Origin: Omnitrophica bacterium GWA2_52_8
GTDB lineage: Bacteria > Omnitrophota > Omnitrophia > Omnitrophales > Aquincolibacteriaceae
Direction: 5' to 3'
DNA: 15,000 bases
NCBI GenBank assembly: GCA_001804025.1
Contig: MHFC01000001.1
Coordinates: 2,880 to 17,879 of the forward strand
The notes under the pieces were generated by a model. The model worked only from the letters and a program-made list of their open reading frames with translations. It was not told the origin of the DNA and searched no databases. Below, piece by piece: positions 1 through 15,000 of this stretch (positions are counted from its first letter, which is position 1; each line of letters begins with the position of its first letter). Made by a program: the position numbers and the translations under genes.

Positions 1-3000
1 ATTGAGGCTCACGAATAAGGGCCGTCCAGGTTAAGCGGAGCCCCCGCCCTCCGGCAAGAAGCTCTGCCTCCCAGCGGCGAACGTGCTGCGGATCGGCTAT
101 GCCTCGCAAAATAACAAAGCGGTTTGGACGGTCAGAATCTATATCCGCGCGCACAAAAAACTTTTCCTGCGTCTGCCGGGTCTTTGTCCACTCACGCATC
201 AGGTGCGTCCGCAAATTAGCAAATCCTTTTCCCATTCCGTCAAAGTAACGGACCGAGCCTTCTTCTATCGGGCGGTCATCGACGAAGAGAAACCCTGTGT
301 GATCGGGATGAGGAACCAAAGCAATAGGACGCAGAGGGACCGGCCGGTCTTGTCCCGCCGCCGCTAAAGCCTGAACTCCTGCCGGCACAGGCTGCCATCC
401 GCTATCCCTTTTTTCATTAACATAAATTCCCGCGTCCGGATCATAGGCCAAGGGCAGCGATCTTGTTTCATACGTTGCGCTTCCTATGCGCCTAGCCAGA
501 ATTTCAAGCTGCCCAAGCCGCAGGCCGCCGGCCTCCGCTTCCTCACCTTCAACATCGCGGATTTCAATCTTGATGAAACGGAACCGGTCTTCGTCAAGGT
601 CCGGTATTTTTACGTTGCGAGTCTTCGGATTGAGCATTTCATCATAATGAGTGATCACCATGTTATGGCCCGGCACGTCGCCAAACTCATGCTGCTTTCC
701 TACAAAATGAGCAGACCATTGCGGCGACCGCGATCTATGCGGATTCATCCATTGCAATTTAACATCTTGCGGCCCGGCAATAGTTTTTGAAAAAGCATGC
801 CAACGGAATTCCCCCGTCCAGAATTGAGGCATGAGAACCCGCGGATTTTTCAGCTGCGCAAAAAATGAACTCGTCTGCAGGATGCCAACCTGAACCCCGG
901 TTTCCCCGGTTTGATAAATCGCTAATTGAATTCTGTTCGGATCCGCCGCGCTGGGATCCGGGTTTAAGCCTTCGATTCTTTGCTGCCATTGAAAGTCCCC
1001 GTAACGGACCGTTAAAACGCCGTATTGATCAATCTCCGCCTGCCAGGGCCCTGCAGTTTGTTCCAGGTGAAGTGTTCTTGGCCGATAGGGCTCATAACCA
1101 GCCCTTGGAGAAGACGGCTTGCTGTTCGCTTCAACGGCGGCCGGAAGAGTTTGCCATTGATGTAAATTAAATGGAATCACCGCCGCTCCGGCGAGCCGCG
1201 TCCGCGGAAACTGAAGCCGCATAAACACATCCCCTCCATTTCTATCTTGTATGTCGACCGCCCATTGCTCCTCGCCGAATCCGCGATCCAGGATGGGGAG
1301 GCGGACCCGCCCCGGCGTAAGCACTGCGACACGGTGACGAGGATGCCCGCTGGATTGGTTTGACCGGAGTGCCGCGCCGAAATCGTCCGCGAATGACCGG
1401 AGGCGCCCCTCGATGGCCGCATTATAATCGGGGTCAAAAAGTGAGACCGTTTGATTCCCGCCCAACACAAGCTGAACACGCATCGGATGCCCCGGAGCCG
1501 GACGCACCGCAATAGCCTGCGCAAACTTATCCCTGGACGCTGCGAAAACCTTTGAGAGATCCAGCGTGCGTTCCAAAACCAGCGTAACGTTTCCCTCAGT
1601 ATCGATATGCGCGGCAAGAAAGACAAGTTTCTCTCCGTTTGAGCGGATCAATATCCTTCCGCGGTTTGGATCGATGGCCACATGAAATGGTTTTTTGCTC
1701 AAGGAATAGTCCTGGTACTCGGGAAAATAATCTTCAATTTTGACATTCACTTTCATTTTATAGAAATGACCGGCGCTCGTCATTCCGGCCCACTCAAAAG
1801 CTTTAAGGCGATACTCCTTATACTCTTCTTCGTCAATAACCCAGATCCAGCCGCGACTGGCTTGGCCCTTCTGCGTGAAAGAAGGCGGGTCCGCCGCAAT
1901 ATGGATCGGTTCCACCAGGAAATCCCGCAAGTTTTTGGCCCCGACAACACTTCCCTGCCAATCCTTGACATAGGGATCAAACAGAATTGCATGCGTCTTC
2001 CCGAAGATATTCATGCCCAAAGCCAGGATTTTTTCCGCCAAAGGGTCAAAAACCAGTCCTTTTGCCTCCGCCCCAAATTCTTCGGTGTCGTTAATTTTCG
2101 ATGCAAATGCGCTGCCGTCACTATTGTAGACAAATTTCCCATTGCCCCTATCTTCGAACGCAAGCCTCAGATCGTGGAAGCTTCCGCTTGCCGTTAAAAC
2201 AGCATAACGTGTCACTGTTTTGGGGGCGGCGGCAGCGGGCGCGCCGGCGACTTTTCGGGGAGGAATTCTTGCAAGAAAACCACGGGGGCCAATCGCCCCG
2301 CCATACGCAACCGCCTCGACAGCGGGGGACCTTTCAGGACTAAAGACATAAAATGACTGGCCGGCATCCCGGATCGCCAGAAACCGGCCTTCCGGATCTC
2401 CCCATTCGAATTGATAAAATTCATGGCCGTATCGCGTTTCATAACTGAGCTTAGCCAGGCGATGCTCCCCCTTGAGGACTTCGACGCCGGCTCTTGTCTC
2501 CATAAATGTACGCAGCTCCGAACGCGGTTTGGGGATGTTGCTGTTCCTCATCGCTTCAAAATCCCCATCCAGGCGGGCAAGGGTGAGAGCTTCAACGGCC
2601 TTGCGGAATAACCAGTCTCGATGCGCTTGATTTTGTATTTCCTGCTCCTGCCGCCGGCGTTCCAGCATCTCCTTTTCTTCTTTCAGAACCTCTTGCATCC
2701 CTTCTTTTAAAACCGGTCCGATCTCCCGCAAAAGACCCGACAGATATTCCGCGCGCTCATTATATAAAAACGCCAGAACCTCCGACTGATCTGCTTCCGG
2801 CAAAGCCGCGAACTTTTCAATCTCCGCTGCCTTTCGCCGTACATCCTCAATGCCTTCCCGAGTTCGACGGATCTGCCCGGCTAACCGATCGAAGTCTTTT
2901 CGCAGCCGCCCGAGTAACAATTCATCCCGAACCTGCCGTATCTGATGTTCTATGCCGGATTGCACGCGGCCAAGCTCTATTAGCCGCTGCTCGCGGCGGC

Positions 3001-6000
3001 CGAGCACGCTACCGCCCAGCCGGGACCAGTACCAAAGCAGACCTTTTGCATTAAGTTCGTGAGCATCAAAAACCGCATGGGCCGCATCGCCTAAGGTCAC
3101 GGGCAGTGGCGCTTGTTCCGGAGCCATTGGGCCTGCCGCAACCCGGGAAAATGATTCCGATTGCCTCCGAATATGATCCGCCTGATCCCCAAACAGTCCC
3201 AACAAGGCCTTTGAGAGATATTCGGGATCCTGAGTCTGCGCTTCGGTAATGCTTGTCTTGATCCCTCGGGATCGAACCTCCCTATAAGCTTCCCGAAAAC
3301 TGTGGATCCAACCGCGGGAAGCCGCTTCAGGATTTCGAATAAACCGCTCCATAGCGTTCTCGCCTGGGACAGATGTTAAACTGACAAAAAATATCAGGGC
3401 CTCGCGTGCTTCCCGGACAATTCCAAACCGTGCTAATTTTTCAATCAACGCGCTTTCAAAGCTCCCTTGCGTTGAAACAAAATGAGCGGTTAACTGCAAA
3501 AATTTTCTCCGCGAAAGACCCGGATCTGCAGAGGGCTCCTGAGGATCCCGGTTATCTTCGCTCTGCCGGACTTCGGATTGCTCTCCGGATTTTGGCTGAA
3601 GCAGCCGCCCGCCTGCCTTTACGTTATCTTTGTCCTCCCGCGTTTCCGAGCGGCGCCCGTCTGAAATTTCATAGAGCTTTGTCAGCAAGGGACGGAACGT
3701 CGGATCTGCGAAAAGATCGATTCTGTCCAAATAGGGCTCTTCTTGCCGCGCAATCCTGGCAAGCTTCGAACAAAAGTCATCACTCTTCGCATGCTTCACG
3801 ATTTCATCCCAAATTTCATCGGCCGGAACATCATCGCCGAAATAGCCGCGCAGAAAAGGTTCCGCGAACCCCCTCCCATCCTCGACCCTTATATTTTTCA
3901 CGCTTGTTCTCAAGGCCATGCGAAGCAAAAGCGGAGACAAATCCAAAAACCGGTATACCGCTTCTGATTTCCGCCGGGCTTCAGGTAAGCCGCGCAGACC
4001 TCTTCTTTTCTGAACGGTTTCAAGATCTGCCACAATAATATCCGGCAAAACGGCAGCCGGGGGCCCGGTCAGCCTGAGATTATCACCTATATGTTGATGA
4101 AACCGGCCGCTATCATTAAGGCTTCTGATCATCTTTCCTTTCTTTTTAAATAAATCCCCTGCATTTTCTACGGGGGTTTTCTCTCCGGTCTCAAGATTAA
4201 CCACCCGATAAATGACTCTCAAAATCGTTTCCGTCTCACCTAAATCAATGTCCGTATCATCATAATCGTCACCCTCTGGACTTCCCACGTTCCGGTTAAT
4301 ATGATCCAGATGTCTTAATACTTTTATTTCAGGGCCTTCCTGCCCGATAATAAGGAATCCGCTTTTTGCCCCATTAAATTTTTTCCGCAGAAATGTTCCG
4401 CTGCCCTCCAGGGTATCGCTATAAACAGACAGCGCTTCGTCATCAAGCAAATCCCGCATCTCCTTTCCTTCACGGCGTTTTCTTTTATGCAGCACCGCGC
4501 CATAGGCTGAACCCGTATCGATGTATTTGCCGATAATTTCTCCGGGATTAGCCGGATCTGGAACAAAAATCCAATGAGGCTGCCCATAGGCAAGAAGTTT
4601 TCCGCTGAGGCTCCGCGGCCTAACCCCTTTTAATTTCAATACACGAAGAACGCGCCCCTTCGTTTCGATGGGCTGAGACAAATTCAGATAAACCGTCCGT
4701 CCGATAGACTCTGACTTCCTTTCCCGGAAATCAATCCATACTTTTCCGCGGGATGACTCCATTATATGCGTCAGCCCCGGTTCATCTTCCAATGCTCCAA
4801 GCCATAGAATTCTGTAAAGAAAGATCCAATCTCCTGATTGTTTCAATCCTTCAAAAACTGCCCTCTTGATTTCGAACTCGATTTCTTCCCCCATTCGGAC
4901 CTTGACATTGTCTGCGTCTTCCGTCCTGACAATCTCCGGCAACTCCGAACTTTTAACCACTTCTAAAGACTCCGCTGCGTCCTCCGTCCGCGCTTCGGAG
5001 CGATTGTTTTGTATTCGCAATTCTGACCCTTTAATCTGGAAGTAATACCCGTCCTCACCGGAAAAACGAATGCTCATGAAGAGCGGGGGCGCAACTTTTT
5101 TCTTCTTCATAAACCGTACCATTTCCTCCGCCTCCGCCTGAGAACGATTGTGGTTCTCGGCCATACTCACTATCGTCATCCGTTTGTCATCTGCGGCACG
5201 CATGTGACTTATGCCGTAAACGGGAATCCACTGTGCCATAAAAGCCTCTATTTCGTTCCATGATCTTAAATAAACATTGCTTGGCAGTTGATTTTCCCTG
5301 GCTTCCGAACGATTTAACGGAGAATAAGACTGCATCCATTGAGATGATGCAAACCTGGCCGTCAGACGGGGATCTCCGCGTAATTCGCGCTCGATGATTT
5401 TGCGCATGGCCGCCGCATCAACGTTTTCGGGCCTCCGCATTTCGGCCCGGCGGGGTGCTTTCGCCCGCTTTTGTTTTTTTCTGGCGGCCTCAATTTTGCT
5501 GCGCAGCCGGCCGCGCGCCGCATCAACGTCACGGACAAAAGACCGCCGTCTTTGCTGCGCCGCCGCATCGGTTGTTCCAGTCTCCTCCCGCATTAACGCC
5601 GCTTTTATTCCGATCAATTGCCGCTGCAGCGCAAAGAGCGCTTTCAACCCTTCTGTTTCATCGGTTTTTTTTATGATTGCCTGCATGCGTTCGGCGTCGA
5701 TACGCAATTCGGAACGGACGGCGCTTCGTTTGATAATGCCTTGTGCGAGAATCGGCATTGCGGAAGCAGCTTTTCTCGAGTCGTTCTCGTGAATGGCAAA
5801 GCGGACGGTCATGGGGGTCGAGGAAAGAAGCCGGATACCAAGGGTGTCGCCTGAAAAGTCCGTCCGTTCCTGGGGCGTAAAAAGCTCGTCCAATCGGCCG
5901 GCATAGTTTTGAATATACTCCTTCAGGTATTCGATCAACCATTCCACCGTCAGCTCCTGCCCGTTCACCGGCTCTCTAATTGACCGGACGCGTACCCGTA

Positions 6001-7996
6001 TTTCATGATCCGATAACGTCATCGTAAATTCTACGATTTCTGATTCATCGTCCGTTTCATCCCTCATCCATGATTCCGATTCCCTCACTTCAGCCCGGCC
6101 ATTCTGCCCGCGGACCGCTGCCGGCGGCGCGGCGCTTACAGTTTTTCCCTGATCTTCATCCCGCGCTCCCCGCCTGAAATATCCGCTCATAAATTGGGAG
6201 CTGCGGAATTGTTCAAGCAGCCGGGGCGCCAAGGCGCCTTCGGCATGGATTTCGCGTTCGATGGTCTTGCGCATGCCGGAGCGGGCATGCGCAAAGAGCT
6301 GCGGGTCGAGCCGCATCAAAGCGGCCGGCTGCATGCGGCGGAAGGCCGCGATCGTAGAGGTCTTTACCGCCGCCGGACCTAAAAGCGCGCGTGTGTAAAT
6401 TTTGTTTTCATGCCGCCCGGCGTCCGTGACATTGGGCATGATTTCCACATAAGATATTTTTTTGGCGAGAAGTTCCCGCTTTAAACCTTCCGTATGAAAA
6501 CCTCCGGCAATCAAAACAGCCGCTTTTGTTTTGCTGCGTTCAAGCTGCGCTGCGGTGTTTTCCAGCATGTGCTTTTCGCGATGAATCGCACCGGAATAGA
6601 AAGACAGCGCAGTTTTATAAATCGGGTTGCGGGGCGTGAGCCGTGCGTCGTGAGTCGTGCCGCCATCCTCGCGAATGAGCGGGATAACAGCCGGCAAATC
6701 TTGTGCGGCGCCGGAATTTGTGCCGTTAAGCTTCCGGACTCTCTCAAGCATTCGTTCGGGACTGATTTCTTTCGCGCGGGTCTGGATCTCTTCGTATTCT
6801 TTTCGTGTCAATTCGAGGTTAAAAAGTTTTTTAAGCAGGCGGAAATCCCGGCTCCAGGCCGTCATTTGTTTCGCCGCATCCGTTAGCGCCAGCGCGTCCA
6901 TGATCTCTCCGGCCAAAGTTTCCGCTTCGCCGAAAAGACCGGCCGCGTGCAGTTCTTCGATCAAAATCCGGTGCTGAATTTGCATTTTTAAATGCGGATA
7001 CGCATCGAAAGAAAAGGATTGAGGCAGGCGGTCAAACAGGCGCTCAAACAAATGCCGCGTCGCATAGGGCCGTGCACCGGCAGGACCGCGCATTAAACTG
7101 TCTGGACTTTCGCCCAAGACGCCCGCGACTTGCCTCCGTAAATCCGGTGAAATTTTCAGGGTCTCGAGTTTGGCGTCAAAGGCCCTGGCTTCTTCCGCGC
7201 TTTGCTTCGGATCCATTTTTCCCTCAAGGGCGGCGAGCCGGTAATAACGCACGAGCGCAGGCCGCGCGTCCTGGTTCCAGACGCTTTCGAGGTCCAGTTT
7301 CAGGGTTTCAAGCGCAGTTTTCTTAAGCGTCGCAAACCAGGCTTCAAGCGGAACATGCCCCGCCTCAAAGGATTCCTGCTGTTCGATGAGGTTTTTCAAT
7401 GCGCGCGGCAGCACACCCTCCGCAGCTCTTTGCCACACTGGATGCAGCTTTGCCGTGACCGCCGCAGACTCTTCTTTTCTCAAATAGCTCTCGCGGTAAT
7501 CCTGCCAGTTTTTTTTGTAGGAATCGAAATCCTCGATGCCATGCCCCCGGACCGCTTTCGCTGTTTGAGCAAGATACGCTTCCGCACCGGAAAGCTCGCC
7601 CCTGCGCAGCAAACTGTCCACAATGCGGCCGTTTAATTCCGGCCGGCCGGGATAAATTTTAAAAAGTCCGGCCTCTAGTGCGCCGCTTGCGCCTTCGGTG
7701 AGGACAACCGATATCCGGTATTTTTTTTCGAGATATTGCAGAATTTTTTGAATGTTTTTCTGGGCTTCTTCGCTGGCATGAATTTCGGGGATATGAATGA
7801 CGGTATGCTCGGAACCCGGAACAAGTACCGTTTCCCGGATGCCGCCAAGTTCAAACGGAAGCGACCAATCCGCCGCAAGGAGCGCCGGCAATTGGCGAAT
7901 TTCTTCCGCATAGGCAGGCTGATAGACATTGGTGAGTAGATAGACAAGAACCAACAGGCAAGCCGTGACCCTGCGCGATTTTTTGAATCCAGACAT
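1..7996 (-). CDS. Giant exported multidomain protein with N-terminal ChaN/TraB-like domain (3' end outside window)
   Basis: The frame from ATG at 7996 stays open to base 2, giving at least 2,665 residues; the end lies outside the window. The start is supported by a signal peptide (basic MSGFKKSRR, hydrophobic core, AYA|EE cleavage near residue 30) and an in-frame stop upstream at 8066-8068; no convincing ribosome-binding site is seen. Visible order: residues about 60-525, a ChaN/TraB-like domain (EIHA at 71-74, TEG at 100-102, AGGFHT around H501); 575-606 and 864-891, a repeated module; basic segment 795-855; 1040-1420, a possible degenerate kinase-like region (GFLIIG at 1213, HQHIGDN at 1300-1306, ADLE at 1323-1326); about 1660-1800, strongly charged and probably coiled coil; about 1840-2665, beta-rich, with propeller-like FDP/IDP strands near 1984 and 2109 and an F5/8C-like stretch (RFRFIKIEI) near 2474. 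Short R(S/A)ExR linkers recur. The signal peptide implies export; the function is unknown. That this is a real gene is near certain; the domain names are tentative. Confidence 0.93.
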   Translation of the reverse strand, partial: MSGFKKSRRVTACLLVLVYLLTNVYQPAYAEEIRQLPALLAADWSLPFELGGIRETVLVPGSEHTVIHIPEIHASEEAQKNIQKILQYLEKKYRISVVLTEGASGALEAGLFKIYPGRPELNGRIVDSLLRRGELSGAEAYLAQTAKAVRGHGIEDFDSYKKNWQDYRESYLRKEESAAVTAKLHPVWQRAAEGVLPRALKNLIEQQESFEAGHVPLEAWFATLKKTALETLKLDLESVWNQDARPALVRYYRLAALEGKMDPKQSAEEARAFDAKLETLKISPDLRRQVAGVLGESPDSLMRGPAGARPYATRHLFERLFDRLPQSFSFDAYPHLKMQIQHRILIEELHAAGLFGEAETLAGEIMDALALTDAAKQMTAWSRDFRLLKKLFNLELTRKEYEEIQTRAKEISPERMLERVRKLNGTNSGAAQDLPAVIPLIREDGGTTHDARLTPRNPIYKTALSFYSGAIHREKHMLENTAAQLERSKTKAAVLIAGGFHTEGLKRELLAKKISYVEIMPNVTDAGRHENKIYTRALLGPAAVKTSTIAAFRRMQPAALMRLDPQLFAHARSGMRKTIEREIHAEGALAPRLLEQFRSSQFMSGYFRRGARDEDQGKTVSAAPPAAVRGQNGRAEVRESESWMRDETDDESEIVEFTMTLSDHEIRVRVRSIREPVNGQELTVEWLIEYLKEYIQNYAGRLDELFTPQERTDFSGDTLGIRLLSSTPMTVRFAIHENDSRKAASAMPILAQGIIKRSAVRSELRIDAERMQAIIKKTDETEGLKALFALQRQLIGIKAALMREETGTTDAAAQQRRRSFVRDVDAARGRLRSKIEAARKKQKRAKAPRRAEMRRPENVDAAAMRKIIERELRGDPRLTARFASSQWMQSYSPLNRSEARENQLPSNVYLRSWNEIEAFMAQWIPVYGISHMRAADDKRMTIVSMAENHNRSQAEAEEMVRFMKKKKVAPPLFMSIRFSGEDGYYFQIKGSELRIQNNRSEARTEDAAESLEVVKSSELPEIVRTEDADNVKVRMGEEIEFEIKRAVFEGLKQSGDWIFLYRILWLGALEDEPGLTHIMESSRGKVWIDFRERKSESIGRTVYLNLSQPIETKGRVLRVLKLKGVRPRSLSGKLLAYGQPHWIFVPDPANPGEIIGKYIDTGSAYGAVLHKRKRREGKEMRDLLDDEALSVYSDTLEGSGTFLRKKFNGAKSGFLIIGQEGPEIKVLRHLDHINRNVGSPEGDDYDDTDIDLGETETILRVIYRVVNLETGEKTPVENAGDLFKKKGKMIRSLNDSGRFHQHIGDNLRLTGPPAAVLPDIIVADLETVQKRRGLRGLPEARRKSEAVYRFLDLSPLLLRMALRTSVKNIRVEDGRGFAEPFLRGYFGDDVPADEIWDEIVKHAKSDDFCSKLARIARQEEPYLDRIDLFADPTFRPLLTKLYEISDGRRSETREDKDNVKAGGRLLQPKSGEQSEVRQSEDNRDPQEPSADPGLSRRKFLQLTAHFVSTQGSFESALIEKLARFGIVREAREALIFFVSLTSVPGENAMERFIRNPEAASRGWIHSFREAYREVRSRGIKTSITEAQTQDPEYLSKALLGLFGDQADHIRRQSESFSRVAAGPMAPEQAPLPVTLGDAAHAVFDAHELNAKGLLWYWSRLGGSVLGRREQRLIELGRVQSGIEHQIRQVRDELLLGRLRKDFDRLAGQIRRTREGIEDVRRKAAEIEKFAALPEADQSEVLAFLYNERAEYLSGLLREIGPVLKEGMQEVLKEEKEMLERRRQEQEIQNQAHRDWLFRKAVEALTLARLDGDFEAMRNSNIPKPRSELRTFMETRAGVEVLKGEHRLAKLSYETRYGHEFYQFEWGDPEGRFLAIRDAGQSFYVFSPERSPAVEAVAYGGAIGPRGFLARIPPRKVAGAPAAAAPKTVTRYAVLTASGSFHDLRLAFEDRGNGKFVYNSDGSAFASKINDTEEFGAEAKGLVFDPLAEKILALGMNIFGKTHAILFDPYVKDWQGSVVGAKNLRDFLVEPIHIAADPPSFTQKGQASRGWIWVIDEEEYKEYRLKAFEWAGMTSAGHFYKMKVNVKIEDYFPEYQDYSLSKKPFHVAIDPNRGRILIRSNGEKLVFLAAHIDTEGNVTLVLERTLDLSKVFAASRDKFAQAIAVRPAPGHPMRVQLVLGGNQTVSLFDPDYNAAIEGRLRSFADDFGAALRSNQSSGHPRHRVAVLTPGRVRLPILDRGFGEEQWAVDIQDRNGGDVFMRLQFPRTRLAGAAVIPFNLHQWQTLPAAVEANSKPSSPRAGYEPYRPRTLHLEQTAGPWQAEIDQYGVLTVRYGDFQWQQRIEGLNPDPSAADPNRIQLAIYQTGETGVQVGILQTSSFFAQLKNPRVLMPQFWTGEFRWHAFSKTIAGPQDVKLQWMNPHRSRSPQWSAHFVGKQHEFGDVPGHNMVITHYDEMLNPKTRNVKIPDLDEDRFRFIKIEIRDVEGEEAEAGGLRLGQLEILARRIGSATYETRSLPLAYDPDAGIYVNEKRDSGWQPVPAGVQALAAAGQDRPVPLRPIALVPHPDHTGFLFVDDRPIEEGSVRYFDGMGKGFANLRTHLMREWTKTRQTQEKFFVRADIDSDRPNRFVILRGIADPQHVRRWEAELLAGGRGLRLTWTALIREPQ
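5324..5407 (-). repeat. Internal protein repeat, copy 2 (residues 864-891 of the giant protein)
   Basis: This segment starts MRKIIERE, contains PRL and F-x-SSQ-x-M and ends in Y at residue 891, like copy 1. It follows the basic RAEMRR linker and is followed five residues later by the RSEARE linker, so repeat and linker may form one unit. Confidence 0.7.
6179..6274 (-). repeat. Internal protein repeat, copy 1 (residues 575-606 of the giant protein)
   Basis: The segment starts MRKTIERE, contains PRL and F-x-SSQ-x-M and ends in Y at residue 606. It matches a second segment 289 residues downstream at 16 positions, allowing a four-residue gap. It sits between the ChaN-like domain and an acidic linker. 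It may be a small helical module; I do not recognise it as a named family. Confidence 0.7.
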
Positions 7997-8117: not shown

Positions 8118-8181
8118 GCTTCATGAGGCCACCGAATGTTAGCGAGTGCTATTTTCTGCAAATTATTTTTTTTAAGAAATT

Positions 8182-8209
8182 TTGCTAATTTCAGGCCCTT
8201 GGGTATAAT
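8182..8209 (+). promoter_or_regulatory. Sigma70-type promoter placed for a leaderless transcript
   Basis: TTGCTA (8182-8187), a 16-bp spacer and a perfect TATAAT (8204-8209) precede the ATG at 8217 by seven bases. A normal start point would fall at or one base before the A of the ATG. No Shine-Dalgarno sequence precedes this ATG, which fits leaderless translation. Confidence 0.6.
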
Positions 8210-8216
8210 TCCGTGC

Positions 8217-10289
8217 ATGAACTCTTCTTTCTGCGTTCGATCAACTCTGGCAGTCCTGGTCCTTCTGTCCGGACTTCCGTCCGTTTCCGCCGAACTGCAG
8301 GATCCGGTGCCGCTTACCCAGTTCGCGATCCCCGAATCGCTGGGAAAAATCGAGGAGCGGCACATCGGCACCCGCGACCGCTGGATCATTCAAATTCAGG
8401 ACATCCATGCCCATGCAACGGCCCAGGAAAACATTGCCGCCATTTTGGACCATTTAAATGCGGTTTATGGAATTCAGAAAATCGCCCTTGAGGGCAATTG
8501 GGGGAAAACAAGTTACGCCGAAGTCTGGGAGATACAGAATTCCGCGAAAAAACAGCTCTTACTGCGCACCCTGATGGAAAACGCCATTATCTCGGGTGCC
8601 GGCTATGCCGCGTCTTTTTCACGAACGCCGTTAGTCCTCACCGGCATCGAAGACCCCGCGCTTTACGAGGAAAACCGCCGGGCTTTTTTAAAACACCTTG
8701 CCGGTTTTGATGCAGCGCACCAAACCATTGCGGCCGAAGACACCCGGATCGAAAACCAAAAAGCTTCGCTTTACTCTCCGGAATTACTGGTTTTTGACAA
8801 AGCTTACCGCAAATTCCGCGAAGGAGAAAAAGCGGAACAATTTTTACCGGCGCTGCTTGAAATGGCCGCTTCGCAGCAAATCAATATTCAGGACCTGGGT
8901 CAAATTGTCCTGCTGCGGGAGATTATTCAAACCGCTTCGGCCGTCAAAAAAACAAAGCTCGAAGCGGAAGCCGGACGCCTCATGCCGGAATATCAGCGGG
9001 AGGGCCTGCATTTCGAGGAGCTGTTGAAAAGCGGAAAAATCCAGGCCGAAAAACTTGCCTATTATCCCGAAACCGCCCGGTATCTTCAGCTTATGCAGCT
9101 TCAGGACAAACTCTCGCACCATGACCTTTTCGCGCAAATCGAAGCCGCCGTGAAGCGGGTCAAAACAACTCTTATGACCGCTGAAGATGAAAAGCTCCTC
9201 GATGCCCGTGCGGAACGATTTTATATTGCCCGCCAAATTCTGAATTTAAAAGCTACGCCTGACGACCTGAAAAAATATGCGGTCGTGCAAGATTTGACGG
9301 ACGAAGAGCTGCGCGCCGCCGGGTTGGCGGAAGCCTTTATGATCTCAATGGGGTTTTACGCGCTCGCCAAACAGCGCGACGAGGAGTTTTTCAGAAAAAT
9401 CGAGTCCGATCCGGAACTCGCGGGAAATTTCGCGCTTGTGGCCGGCGGTTTTCATACCGGAGACATGATCAAACGCTACCGGCAGGCGGGATATTCCTAT
9501 CTGGTCATCACGCCGGATCTGGGAGGCCTGCCGCCGGATGAGGCCTTATACACCAGGCGTTTAAACGACGCCCTGGCAGTTGCCGAAACCTTGTCATCCG
9601 ACCAAAACCGGACAATCCGCGCACCCGCTTATATCCCGGAAGGTTTTTCGGTTTTGCTCGAAACAAACGACGCGCGCAAAGCCGCGGCCGCCGTTGATAC
9701 CGCACTGCTACAGGCCGGAACGCGCGATGCAGCACTTAAAGCTGCAGCCACGAGCGCAGAGGCTTTTACCGACGACGCACAATTCGACGATGCCGCCCGC
9801 GTCGAACTTCTTAAAGGCTGGCTGTCGCTTGCCTTTGCCGGAACGGAGACAATCGCCATTGCAGGACTGCAGGACAATCTCCTCCGCAATGACAGACTTT
9901 TTTCATCGATGGCCGCTAACTCCAGAAATCATTTTGTGGTCATCGTGCCGTCCTCCGGCGGAATCGATGAAAGACTGCTGGGAACGCCGAGAAATGTCCA
10001 CAAGCTTGCCGCTGAGTCCCTGCGTGCGGCCTTGACGATGCAACAGGCGCGGGGGCTGCTGGAACGCTTTGTCAAAGAAAGGCTTGCTGCCGCCGTTGAT
10101 CCGGACATGCCGCCCGGAGGCTTTCTTGTTTTTCAGCCTTCCGACTGGACGCTTTTGATCATACGTCCCGTTTTGGAAGGATATCTGCAGTGGTCCGACA
10201 ATCCCGAAATCCAGGCCCGTTTTTTCAGTATCGTTGACCGTCTCATGACCTCGGTTGAAAGTTTGCGCCAATCCCTCGAATCCGCCTAA
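8217..10289 (+). CDS. Exported protein with ChaN/TraB-like domain, related to the N-terminus of the giant protein
   Basis: 690 residues from ATG 8217. I prefer this start to the in-frame ATG at 8136 because it begins a clear signal peptide (MNSSFCVRST, hydrophobic core, VSA|ELQ near residue 25) and follows a well-placed promoter. The motifs QDIHAHATAQENI (D62, H64), LEG (91-93) and AGGFHT (H413) match the pattern of the ChaN/EreA/TraB superfamily: an acidic residue near a histidine, a later glutamate, then a Gly-Gly-x-His. The first 32-residue block aligns without gaps to the giant protein with 14 identities and the same 28-residue spacing from His to Glu. Residues about 440-690 are alanine-rich and helical; the final part is not recognised. 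Known relatives bind haem or act as esterases or peptidases, but the substrate here cannot be told. The stop codon lies inside the end of a MITE-like element, so the C-terminus may have been altered. Confidence 0.92.
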   Translation: MNSSFCVRSTLAVLVLLSGLPSVSAELQDPVPLTQFAIPESLGKIEERHIGTRDRWIIQIQDIHAHATAQENIAAILDHLNAVYGIQKIALEGNWGKTSYAEVWEIQNSAKKQLLLRTLMENAIISGAGYAASFSRTPLVLTGIEDPALYEENRRAFLKHLAGFDAAHQTIAAEDTRIENQKASLYSPELLVFDKAYRKFREGEKAEQFLPALLEMAASQQINIQDLGQIVLLREIIQTASAVKKTKLEAEAGRLMPEYQREGLHFEELLKSGKIQAEKLAYYPETARYLQLMQLQDKLSHHDLFAQIEAAVKRVKTTLMTAEDEKLLDARAERFYIARQILNLKATPDDLKKYAVVQDLTDEELRAAGLAEAFMISMGFYALAKQRDEEFFRKIESDPELAGNFALVAGGFHTGDMIKRYRQAGYSYLVITPDLGGLPPDEALYTRRLNDALAVAETLSSDQNRTIRAPAYIPEGFSVLLETNDARKAAAAVDTALLQAGTRDAALKAAATSAEAFTDDAQFDDAARVELLKGWLSLAFAGTETIAIAGLQDNLLRNDRLFSSMAANSRNHFVVIVPSSGGIDERLLGTPRNVHKLAAESLRAALTMQQARGLLERFVKERLAAAVDPDMPPGGFLVFQPSDWTLLIIRPVLEGYLQWSDNPEIQARFFSIVDRLMTSVESLRQSLESA

Positions 10290-10524
10290 GTAACAGTGCA
10301 TAAGTCTTTTAATGTTTTGTTAGACATCCCCGGCTGGTTTTTCCATTAAACCAGCACGGGGAAGTACGAGGGCCAATGAAGCCCTCGTCATCCCCGAATG
10401 CTTGTGTCGGGGATCCAGGAAATTGTGACTGCCCGCCTCAGCCTGAGGCTGATCCGCCTTTGGCGGAAAAGGCATGGGGAATGACAGCTCACAAATATCA
10501 AAAGACTTTTGAACGATTACTTAG
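10286..10524. mobile_element. MITE-like foldback element with about 25-bp terminal inverted repeats
   Basis: The left end reads CTAAGTAA, eight bases, AAGTCTTTT (10286-10310). The right end is its inverse with the same spacing, AAAAGACTT, eight bases, TTACTTAG (10500-10524). Weaker matching continues inward to CCCC/GGGG. The 239-bp unit has no coding capacity. Inside are several hairpins, including 10328-10361 (CCCCG and GCTGGTTT arms) and 10367-10387 (CGAGGGC arms). TCCG occurs just outside both ends (10281-10284, 10525-10528) and may be a target duplication. The upstream gene's TAA (10287-10289) lies within the left repeat. No T-run follows any hairpin, so I do not call a terminator. Confidence 0.65.
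10387..10486. repeat. 100-bp palindromic repeat unit (GTCATCCCC ... GGGGAATGAC)
   Basis: Nested in the foldback element. It opens with a perfect 8-bp hairpin, ATCCCCGA/TCGGGGAT (10390-10414), followed by two back-to-back palindromes, TCAGCCT/AGGCTGA (10438-10452) and TCCGCC/GGCGGA (10453-10467), and ends GGGGAATGAC, nearly the inverse of its start. Intergenic repeats of this GTCATxCCC type are widespread in bacterial genomes, so more copies are expected elsewhere in this one. Confidence 0.6.
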
Positions 10525-10526
10525 TC

Positions 10527-10718
10527 CGGTTTTCTCATCGATTAGGTGAATCGATAAGAAAACCGCTTTGGACGCATGGGGTTGCATCCAAAGTTTTGCG
10601 CCCGCGTTTTAACAGGGCGCAAAAGACAACCCCTGTGGTACAAATGAAAAAACCCATTTGCACCACAGCCTCCGCGAGGGCATTTTTCATTGGTGATGAG
10701 AAATGCGGGTTAGCGCAT
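10527..10718. other. Array of abutting, unrelated hairpins (possible structured RNA or DNA element)
   Basis: Successive stem-loops touch or nearly touch: A 10527-10565 (CGGTTTTCT, one mismatch, ATCGATT; 17 positions), B 10566-10593 (CTTTGGA plus GCA around one mismatch), C 10594-10624 (TTTTGCGCCC, perfect 10 bp), D 10633-10668 (14 positions, one mismatch), a small CCTC/GAGG hairpin 10669-10679, and F 10680-10706 (11 positions, one G-T wobble). An alternative hairpin, ATGCG/CGCAT at 10703-10718, overlaps and would compete with F. GGGGTTG in and beside the loop of B (10578-10584) is the exact complement of CAACCCC between C and D (10627-10633), a possible pseudoknot. The stems do not resemble each other, so this is not a simple repeat. 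I recognise no known RNA family. From 10719 to 10800 I see only a weak hairpin near 10752-10785. Confidence 0.6.
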
Positions 10719-10800
10719 CGTCAGCTTTAATCTTGGGGAAACGCGATATTAGCCGCTCACAAAACAATCCTTGTGCAGCCGGCGGTTCATCAGAAAACGG

Positions 10801-14552: not shown

Positions 14553-14670
14553 TCCCGGCAGCTTGCTACTCTCCCAACGAACTGCTCCGTTAGTACCATC
14601 GCCGGTAGAGGGCTTAACTTCCGTATTCGAAATGGGAACGGGTGTGACCCCTCTCCTATTACCACCGAGA
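14553..14670 (-). rRNA. rrf: 5S ribosomal RNA
   Basis: The minus strand contains the conserved 5S core, with CACACCCGTTCCCATTTCGA, then ACGGAAGTTAAG and CGATGGTACT. The ends were set by pairing: the first ten bases, TCTCGGTGGT, pair completely (with G-U pairs) with the last ten, GCTGCCGGGA, giving 118 nt. It follows the 23S gene and precedes a strong terminator. Confidence 0.95.
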
Positions 14671-14759
14671 AACCGTGACACGAAATCTTCACGAACTTAA
14701 TCCGTGAAAATCCGTGATAAATAACACAACTGAATAAGTTTTGACAGATTTAATGAAAA
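14671..14759 (-). other. 23S-5S spacer without tRNA
   Basis: About 89 bases of AT-rich spacer. No tRNA-like sequence is seen. It contains a tandem 10-bp near-repeat, AATCCGTGAA then AATCCGTGAT (14699-14718, plus strand), which may be part of rRNA-processing pairing or chance. Confidence 0.7.

Positions 14760-15000
<241 letters not shown>

Follow-up and report, generated by a model that had tools for sequence, protein, structure and literature searches.

The window, a 15,000-nt stretch of contig MHFC01000001.1 from the genome of Omnitrophica bacterium GWA2_52_8 (designated G000), carries two long divergent reading frames, two adjoining dispersed repeats and ribosomal RNA sequences. A 2665-aa frame on the minus strand (2-7996) runs off the window and is divergent from a 717-aa frame on the plus strand (8136-10289), whose product had no Pfam match. 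By eye, the two frames have a similar N-terminal stretch (IHIPEIHASEEAQKNI and IQIQDIHAHATAQENI). The 5S rRNA and the 3' end of the 23S rRNA are located at 14553-15000 on the minus strand. One of the dispersed repeats (10286-10524) has imperfect inverted ends of 39 nt (77% complementary) and hairpins of its own, and lies directly upstream of the element considered here. In the window and, judged by the flank, at a second locus (L003), the element is located at the TTAG with which this repeat terminates; a 94% identical copy of the repeat without the element was present on contig C109 (L002).

The region 10527-10718 was described in the earlier note as a chain of abutting, mutually dissimilar hairpins, unlike random or simple repeat DNA. 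Five main hairpins in series were indeed present, given here in plus-strand coordinates. In hairpin A (10527-10565), residues 10527-10543 pair with 10549-10565 through 17-nt arms that are 94% complementary. Hairpins B (10566-10593) and C (10594-10624) are followed by a linker, GACAACCC (10625-10632), for which the element's 3' end and TTAG are a potential pairing partner. Hairpin D (10633-10668) is separated from hairpin E (10680-10706) by an extra small hairpin (10669-10679). The predicted fold of 10520-10740 had an energy of -94.1 kcal/mol on the plus strand, compared with a mean of -61.7 kcal/mol for shuffled sequences (z -6.9), and of -99.5 kcal/mol on the minus strand (z -9.6), and in neither case were any of 200 shuffles as stable. 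The non-random character of the region was borne out by this fold, by further copies and by homologues with compensating changes. The stems are in general unrelated in sequence, as had been claimed, except that hairpins A and E have terminal-repeat letters in common (TTTCTCATC and GATGAGAAA).

The extent given initially was a few bases off. The element comprises 185 bp (10525-10709) with TTAG on both flanks, at 10521-10524 and 10710-10713 on the plus strand, and the hairpins form its interior. The left terminal inverted repeat is TCCGGTTTTCTCATC (10525-10539, plus strand); a left-end pattern occurred at 88 sites in the genome at three or fewer mismatches, as against one site for the same pattern read backwards. 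The right terminal inverted repeat is CCCGCATTTCTCATC (10695-10709, letters read on the minus strand), and the match between the two repeats is imperfect. The end sequence of the element is CTAACCCGNNTTTCTCATC. A 73-aa open reading frame that crosses the element had no Pfam match.

The earlier note had also asked whether the structure recurs in the genome, and further copies were readily found. The assembly amounts to 2.2 Mb in 146 contigs and is 82% complete. A blastn search with 10290-10740 gave 40 full-length copies of about 193 bp, that of the window included, among the best 40 of 176 candidates; a 41st long alignment (L002) was the neighbouring repeat and was not counted as a copy. Over the element alone, the full copies were 96.9-99.0% identical to the one in the window. 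A covariance model of hairpins A-C, the first half of the element, had at least 84 matches in G000, a lower bound that includes copies truncated by contig ends. The entries of exactly 193 nt numbered 38, including one in reverse; seven were identical inside, most others had 1-5 differences and a few had 12 or more. This divergence pattern is that of recent bursts over an old family.

The same model had 79 matches in G041, 22 in G033, 7 in G038, 5 in G031 and 2 in G006, so that 6 of 47 genomes from the order, its own counted, carry the element by this model; these six represent four families. By blastn, it was present in 7 of 97 genomes, its own included, all within one order of Omnitrophota, and in none of 50 outside the order; the short blastn match in G011 was not recovered by the covariance model. 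A pattern for hairpins B-C, run over a collection of 84,980 species from which the genome of the window was possibly left out, found 46 stretches, all in Omnitrophica (FULL_44_17, FULL_50_11, GWA2_47_8 and CG11 45_26). There was no match to the element in plasmid and phage collections and none to the B-C pattern in viral contigs. Such a scattered distribution among relatives is consistent with a mobile element. The titles and abstract openings of the top-listed papers described no such repeat for Omnitrophota, a weak negative.

The flanking tetramer is a 4-bp target-site duplication of the form YTAR in fixed orientation. The seven internally identical copies differed only in the tetramer, five being flanked by TTAG/TTAG and two by CTAG/CTAG; consequently, the tetramer derives from the target and not from the element. 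When 219 candidates in both orientations were reduced to 117 across all genomes, the 61 from G000, read in canonical orientation, comprised 46 TTAG/TTAG, 8 CTAG/CTAG, 1 TTAG/CTAG and 6 other, the last partly due to shifted end calls. All seven copies in G033 had TTAG/TTAG. The 46 in G041 comprised 34 CTAA/CTAA, 7 TTAA/CTAA and 5 other, one of which was TTAA/TTAA. The seven imperfect duplications (L169, L171, L177, L184, L190, L195 and others) always had TTAA as the left and CTAA as the right tetramer. Although TTAG is not palindromic, the canonical orientation in G000 gave 46 TTAG/TTAG and no CTAA/CTAA. Outside the tetramer, there was no base preference in either G000 or G041 (less than 0.15 bit per position, both orientations pooled). 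One pair of filled and empty sites, paralogous and not orthologous, was available from G041. A member of a related subfamily lies inside the hairpin E loop of another copy, and an uninterrupted copy of the host hairpin represents the empty site. The filled site TTAGCCCGGATTTCTCATCG-TTAA-element-TTAA-TAAGAAATTCCG (L320) corresponds to the empty site TTAGCCCGGATTTCTCATCGTTAATAAGAAATTCCG (L316), with two TTAA in the former and one in the latter.

The subfamily sequences are 75-88% identical. The chain of five main hairpins is conserved, and relatives lengthen or shorten it by whole hairpins. In some versions from G033 and G038, which measure 253 and 254 nt with tetramers included, the 3' arm of hairpin B contains two additional hairpins (about 60 nt). 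G038 also has longer versions with apparent extra hairpins, seen by eye, ahead of D, and hairpin D of three copies in G041 contains an insert of about 96 nt. Short forms (36-44 bp) amount to a single terminal-repeat hairpin, and matching tetramers flank four of the seven that a strict pattern detected. In G041, the loop of hairpin E contains YTAA and has itself received nested insertions. Nested hairpins are seen in G041 at L189/L320 and L319, where elements of a second subfamily lie in the loop of hairpin E, or of short one-hairpin forms, of another subfamily.

Several features identify the element as a miniature transposon: 1) it is a short non-coding unit with terminal inverted repeats, 2) it is bounded by a 4-bp target duplication and 3) it is present in many dispersed, near-identical copies. 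This explanation was not among the three put forward in the earlier note, a structured RNA, a folded single-strand DNA element and repeated template switching, of which the last is supported as a contributor. We think it likely that the element is a 185-bp non-autonomous MITE with a conserved chain of hairpins, moved in trans by a putative IS5-type DDE transposase.

The bacterial MITEs Correia/NEMIS, ERIC, RUP and RPE are likewise short (about 100-200 bp), encode no protein, have terminal inverted repeats and a target duplication and are highly base-paired, as outlined in PMC2229807. The present element differs in having five main separate hairpins and a 4-bp YTAR duplication, a distinction drawn from published descriptions. 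BOX of Streptococcus, as portrayed in PMC3049150, is a composite MITE of modular build whose predicted RNA fold is conserved; it has terminal repeats and a target duplication, and its size also varies by whole modules. Compared by description, the Omnitrophota element differs in that its modules are single or paired hairpins gained or lost at several places. REP elements are short palindromes in many copies with a tetranucleotide next to the hairpin, and are associated with RAYT/TIRYT transposases; however, the REP tag, given as GTAG (or CGTC) in the account of PMC3733652, is at one end, whereas the element has YTAR on both sides, as a target duplication. The element apparently belongs to a known kind of mobile DNA, within which it forms a new family with a conserved, modular hairpin chain.

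The assignment to an IS5-type mover is based on the footprint. The duplication motif of IS5 is given as YTAR in PMC10359306, while for IS711, according to PMC2266754, the target is also YTAR and the reported duplication only TA. The 11 IS5 copies of E. coli MG1655 (insH1 to insH11), read in IS5 orientation, had CTAA/CTAA in five cases and CTAG/CTAG, TTAA/TTAA, TTAA/CTAA, CTTG/CTTG, TTAT/TTAT and CTCC/ATAA in one case each. None had TTAG/TTAG, so that the yardstick for polarity is a small sample of five CTAA copies against no TTAG. Within this small sample, IS5 shares with the element the 4-bp YTAR duplication, a similar polarity and even the odd TTAA/CTAA class, and for this reason an IS5-type transposase acting in trans is favoured and would be, by footprint, the best-supported mechanism. 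The fixed tetramer orientation had been considered as evidence against a DDE transposase and for single-strand or site-specific recombination, an argument that was dropped because the polarity of IS5 is similar. In contrast to the element, IS5 encodes its transposase and has different ends (GGAAGGTGCG). Since the ends differ and no IS5-type element with the ends of the present element was found, it is IS5-like in footprint and is not classed as IS5-derived.

Searches for an autonomous relative with matching ends, using PF13546 in the own genome (82% complete), PF01609 in five genomes and PF01797, PF13701 and PF05598 in seven, were negative. PF05598, which recognised IS5 InsH as a positive control, had no match in G000, G033, G041, G038, G006 and G011 and a single match in G031, the surroundings of which lacked the ends of the element. 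The PF01609 proteins were two of IS4 type and one of ISAs1 type in G000 and one of IS4 type in G041; the one frame scanned in G033 had no family, and the remaining PF01609 hits were examined for ends only. An IS701-type mover was rejected on the lack of a PF13546 match in the own genome, and an IS1380-type mover on PF13701 matches that were below the cut-off in five of seven genomes, above it in none, and without matching ends. Exact end sites numbered 93 in G041 (control 0), and inspection of 12 seemingly unpaired ends and four stretches with short or nested forms revealed only truncated, nested or short forms. To our knowledge, an autonomous relative is not known for every MITE.

A covariation analysis, a check proposed in the earlier note, was carried out on 26 aligned copies, of which 25 were taken from 58 representatives (3% difference) and one from G031, and homologues with compensating changes were found. 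The 65 stem pairs were standard in 90.7% of cells, as against 85.8% in shuffled alignments and 36-48% with slid partners, and in 21 of the 65 both partners had changed (a mean of 10.9 in shuffled alignments and 8-11 with slid partners). Of five covariation measures, four were above all 500 shuffles and the fifth, further pair types, was matched by 28 of 500, with the cautions that the structure was taken from one of the sequences and that relatedness alone can beat shuffles. Covariation supports the stems. In hairpin A, 6 of 17 pairs had changed on both sides, and in hairpin D, 7 of 12. The latter is the most variable between subfamilies, with other letters in the relatives and still a hairpin, and was paired in 84.9% of cells; the small hairpin between D and E was paired in 72.1%. 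The segments GGGGTTG, in the loop region of hairpin B, and CAACCCC, between C and D, are complementary, as had been pointed out, but the pseudoknot suggested for them was not upheld: 56.6% of cells were paired compared with a shuffled mean of 56.3%, and the full complement occurred in own-genome rows only.

Strong covariation and a fold far more stable than shuffles are also what favours a structured RNA gene or cis-regulatory RNA, dispersed by chance and maintained by selection on the transcript fold. A mild bias in gene orientation also fits an RNA role: of the 114 copies from three genomes, 39 are oriented like both of their flanking genes and 19 opposite to both, with mixed or undetermined arrangements for the remainder (binomial p 0.012). 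This explanation is nevertheless very improbable. The unit is defined by terminal repeats and target duplications, and no Rfam family matched it at the gathering threshold, the window containing only those of 23S and 5S rRNA. Moreover, stem pairs within G000 and G041 had 34 G.T and 38 A.C as minor non-Watson-Crick states; the wobble counts show no RNA-strand polarity among the copies and no sign of one strand folded as RNA.

Transposition as single-stranded DNA, in the manner of IS200/IS605 or REP/RAYT and with the hairpins as substrate, would account for the hairpin-rich ends, the polar YTAR and the unlike tetramers of 7 of 46 G041 copies, always with T on the left and C on the right; but the tetramer is duplicated, and IS5, a DDE element, has a similar polarity. 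All seven genomes searched had Y1_Tnp genes, and one such gene, on contig C87 of G000, lies just within a truncated copy. However, the ends of the element were found at 1 of 15 Y1 loci fetched, that of C87, where the gene has its own inverted repeats and the adjoining copy is truncated. The predicted fold of the minus strand was more stable in all eight subfamily sequences, in one by a margin of only 0.3 kcal/mol, which is no more than a hint. A replication-strand bias was not significant by GC skew, which was positive at 20 of 38 copies in G000, 23 of 44 in G041 and 5 of 5 in G033 (p 0.87, 0.88 and 0.06). On balance, we consider this route quite unlikely.

Template switching, described in PMC8794818 as a process that generates perfect stems, preserves them and inverts loops, was retained as a contributor because the loops of hairpin A occur exactly inverted. 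TCACCTA, TCGCCTA and TCGTCTA correspond to TAGGTGA, TAGGCGA and TAGACGA as reverse complements, both sets are present, and 6 of 61 copies in G000 are inverted, which suggests that template switching helps to keep the stems perfect. As a full explanation without mobility, a footprint of repeated template switching is refuted to the point of being scarcely conceivable, despite these exact inversions, in that it cannot yield dozens of dispersed copies that are 97-99% identical and have target duplications.

For a MITE moved in trans, the putative IS5-type DDE transposase would recognise both ends of the element and join them to a staggered 4-bp cut at YTAR. The hairpins would be kept by a mix of selection on moving copies and DNA-level repair of palindromes via template switching. 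Where the element lies in transcribed DNA, its hairpins would also form in the RNA and might affect adjacent genes, an effect that has been proposed for other MITEs. A bolder proposal, which we regard as doubtful, is that mobility depends on the folded chain, with a single-stranded fold, perhaps that of the minus strand, being read by the transposase or by a host factor. If true, the element would be DDE-moved with structure-dependent mobility, and whole hairpins could be exchanged, gained or lost while the families retain the architecture.

Throughout the families of a single bacterial order, it is the architecture of the multi-hairpin interior that is conserved, and not its letters, and the same genome contains both old copies and the products of recent bursts. 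The element is thus a natural test case for whether covarying stems in mobile DNA arise via selection on the fold or via template-switching repair of palindromes. The question matters for covariation-based searches for new RNAs; a strong covariation signal in repeats does not on its own count as evidence for an RNA gene.

Two further loci were noted in these genomes. In G038, an insertion sequence of about 1.5 kb (L215, 1248-2777) has a CTAG duplication and ends, TTTTACTGTCTGAG, that are unrelated to those of the element and, by our reading, appear to resemble the IS701 consensus of PMC2266710. The Y1 gene on contig C87 of G000 (L069, 1651-2637; Y1 domain at C87:8816-9151) is flanked by the inverted repeat AGGGGTCAAGACTTCAATTG and starts just inside the copy of the element that is truncated in hairpin C. 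Its transposase is of the REP-associated type by NCBIfam, below the cut-off, and the locus resembles the TIRYT/TIRtron arrangement outlined in PMC3733652.
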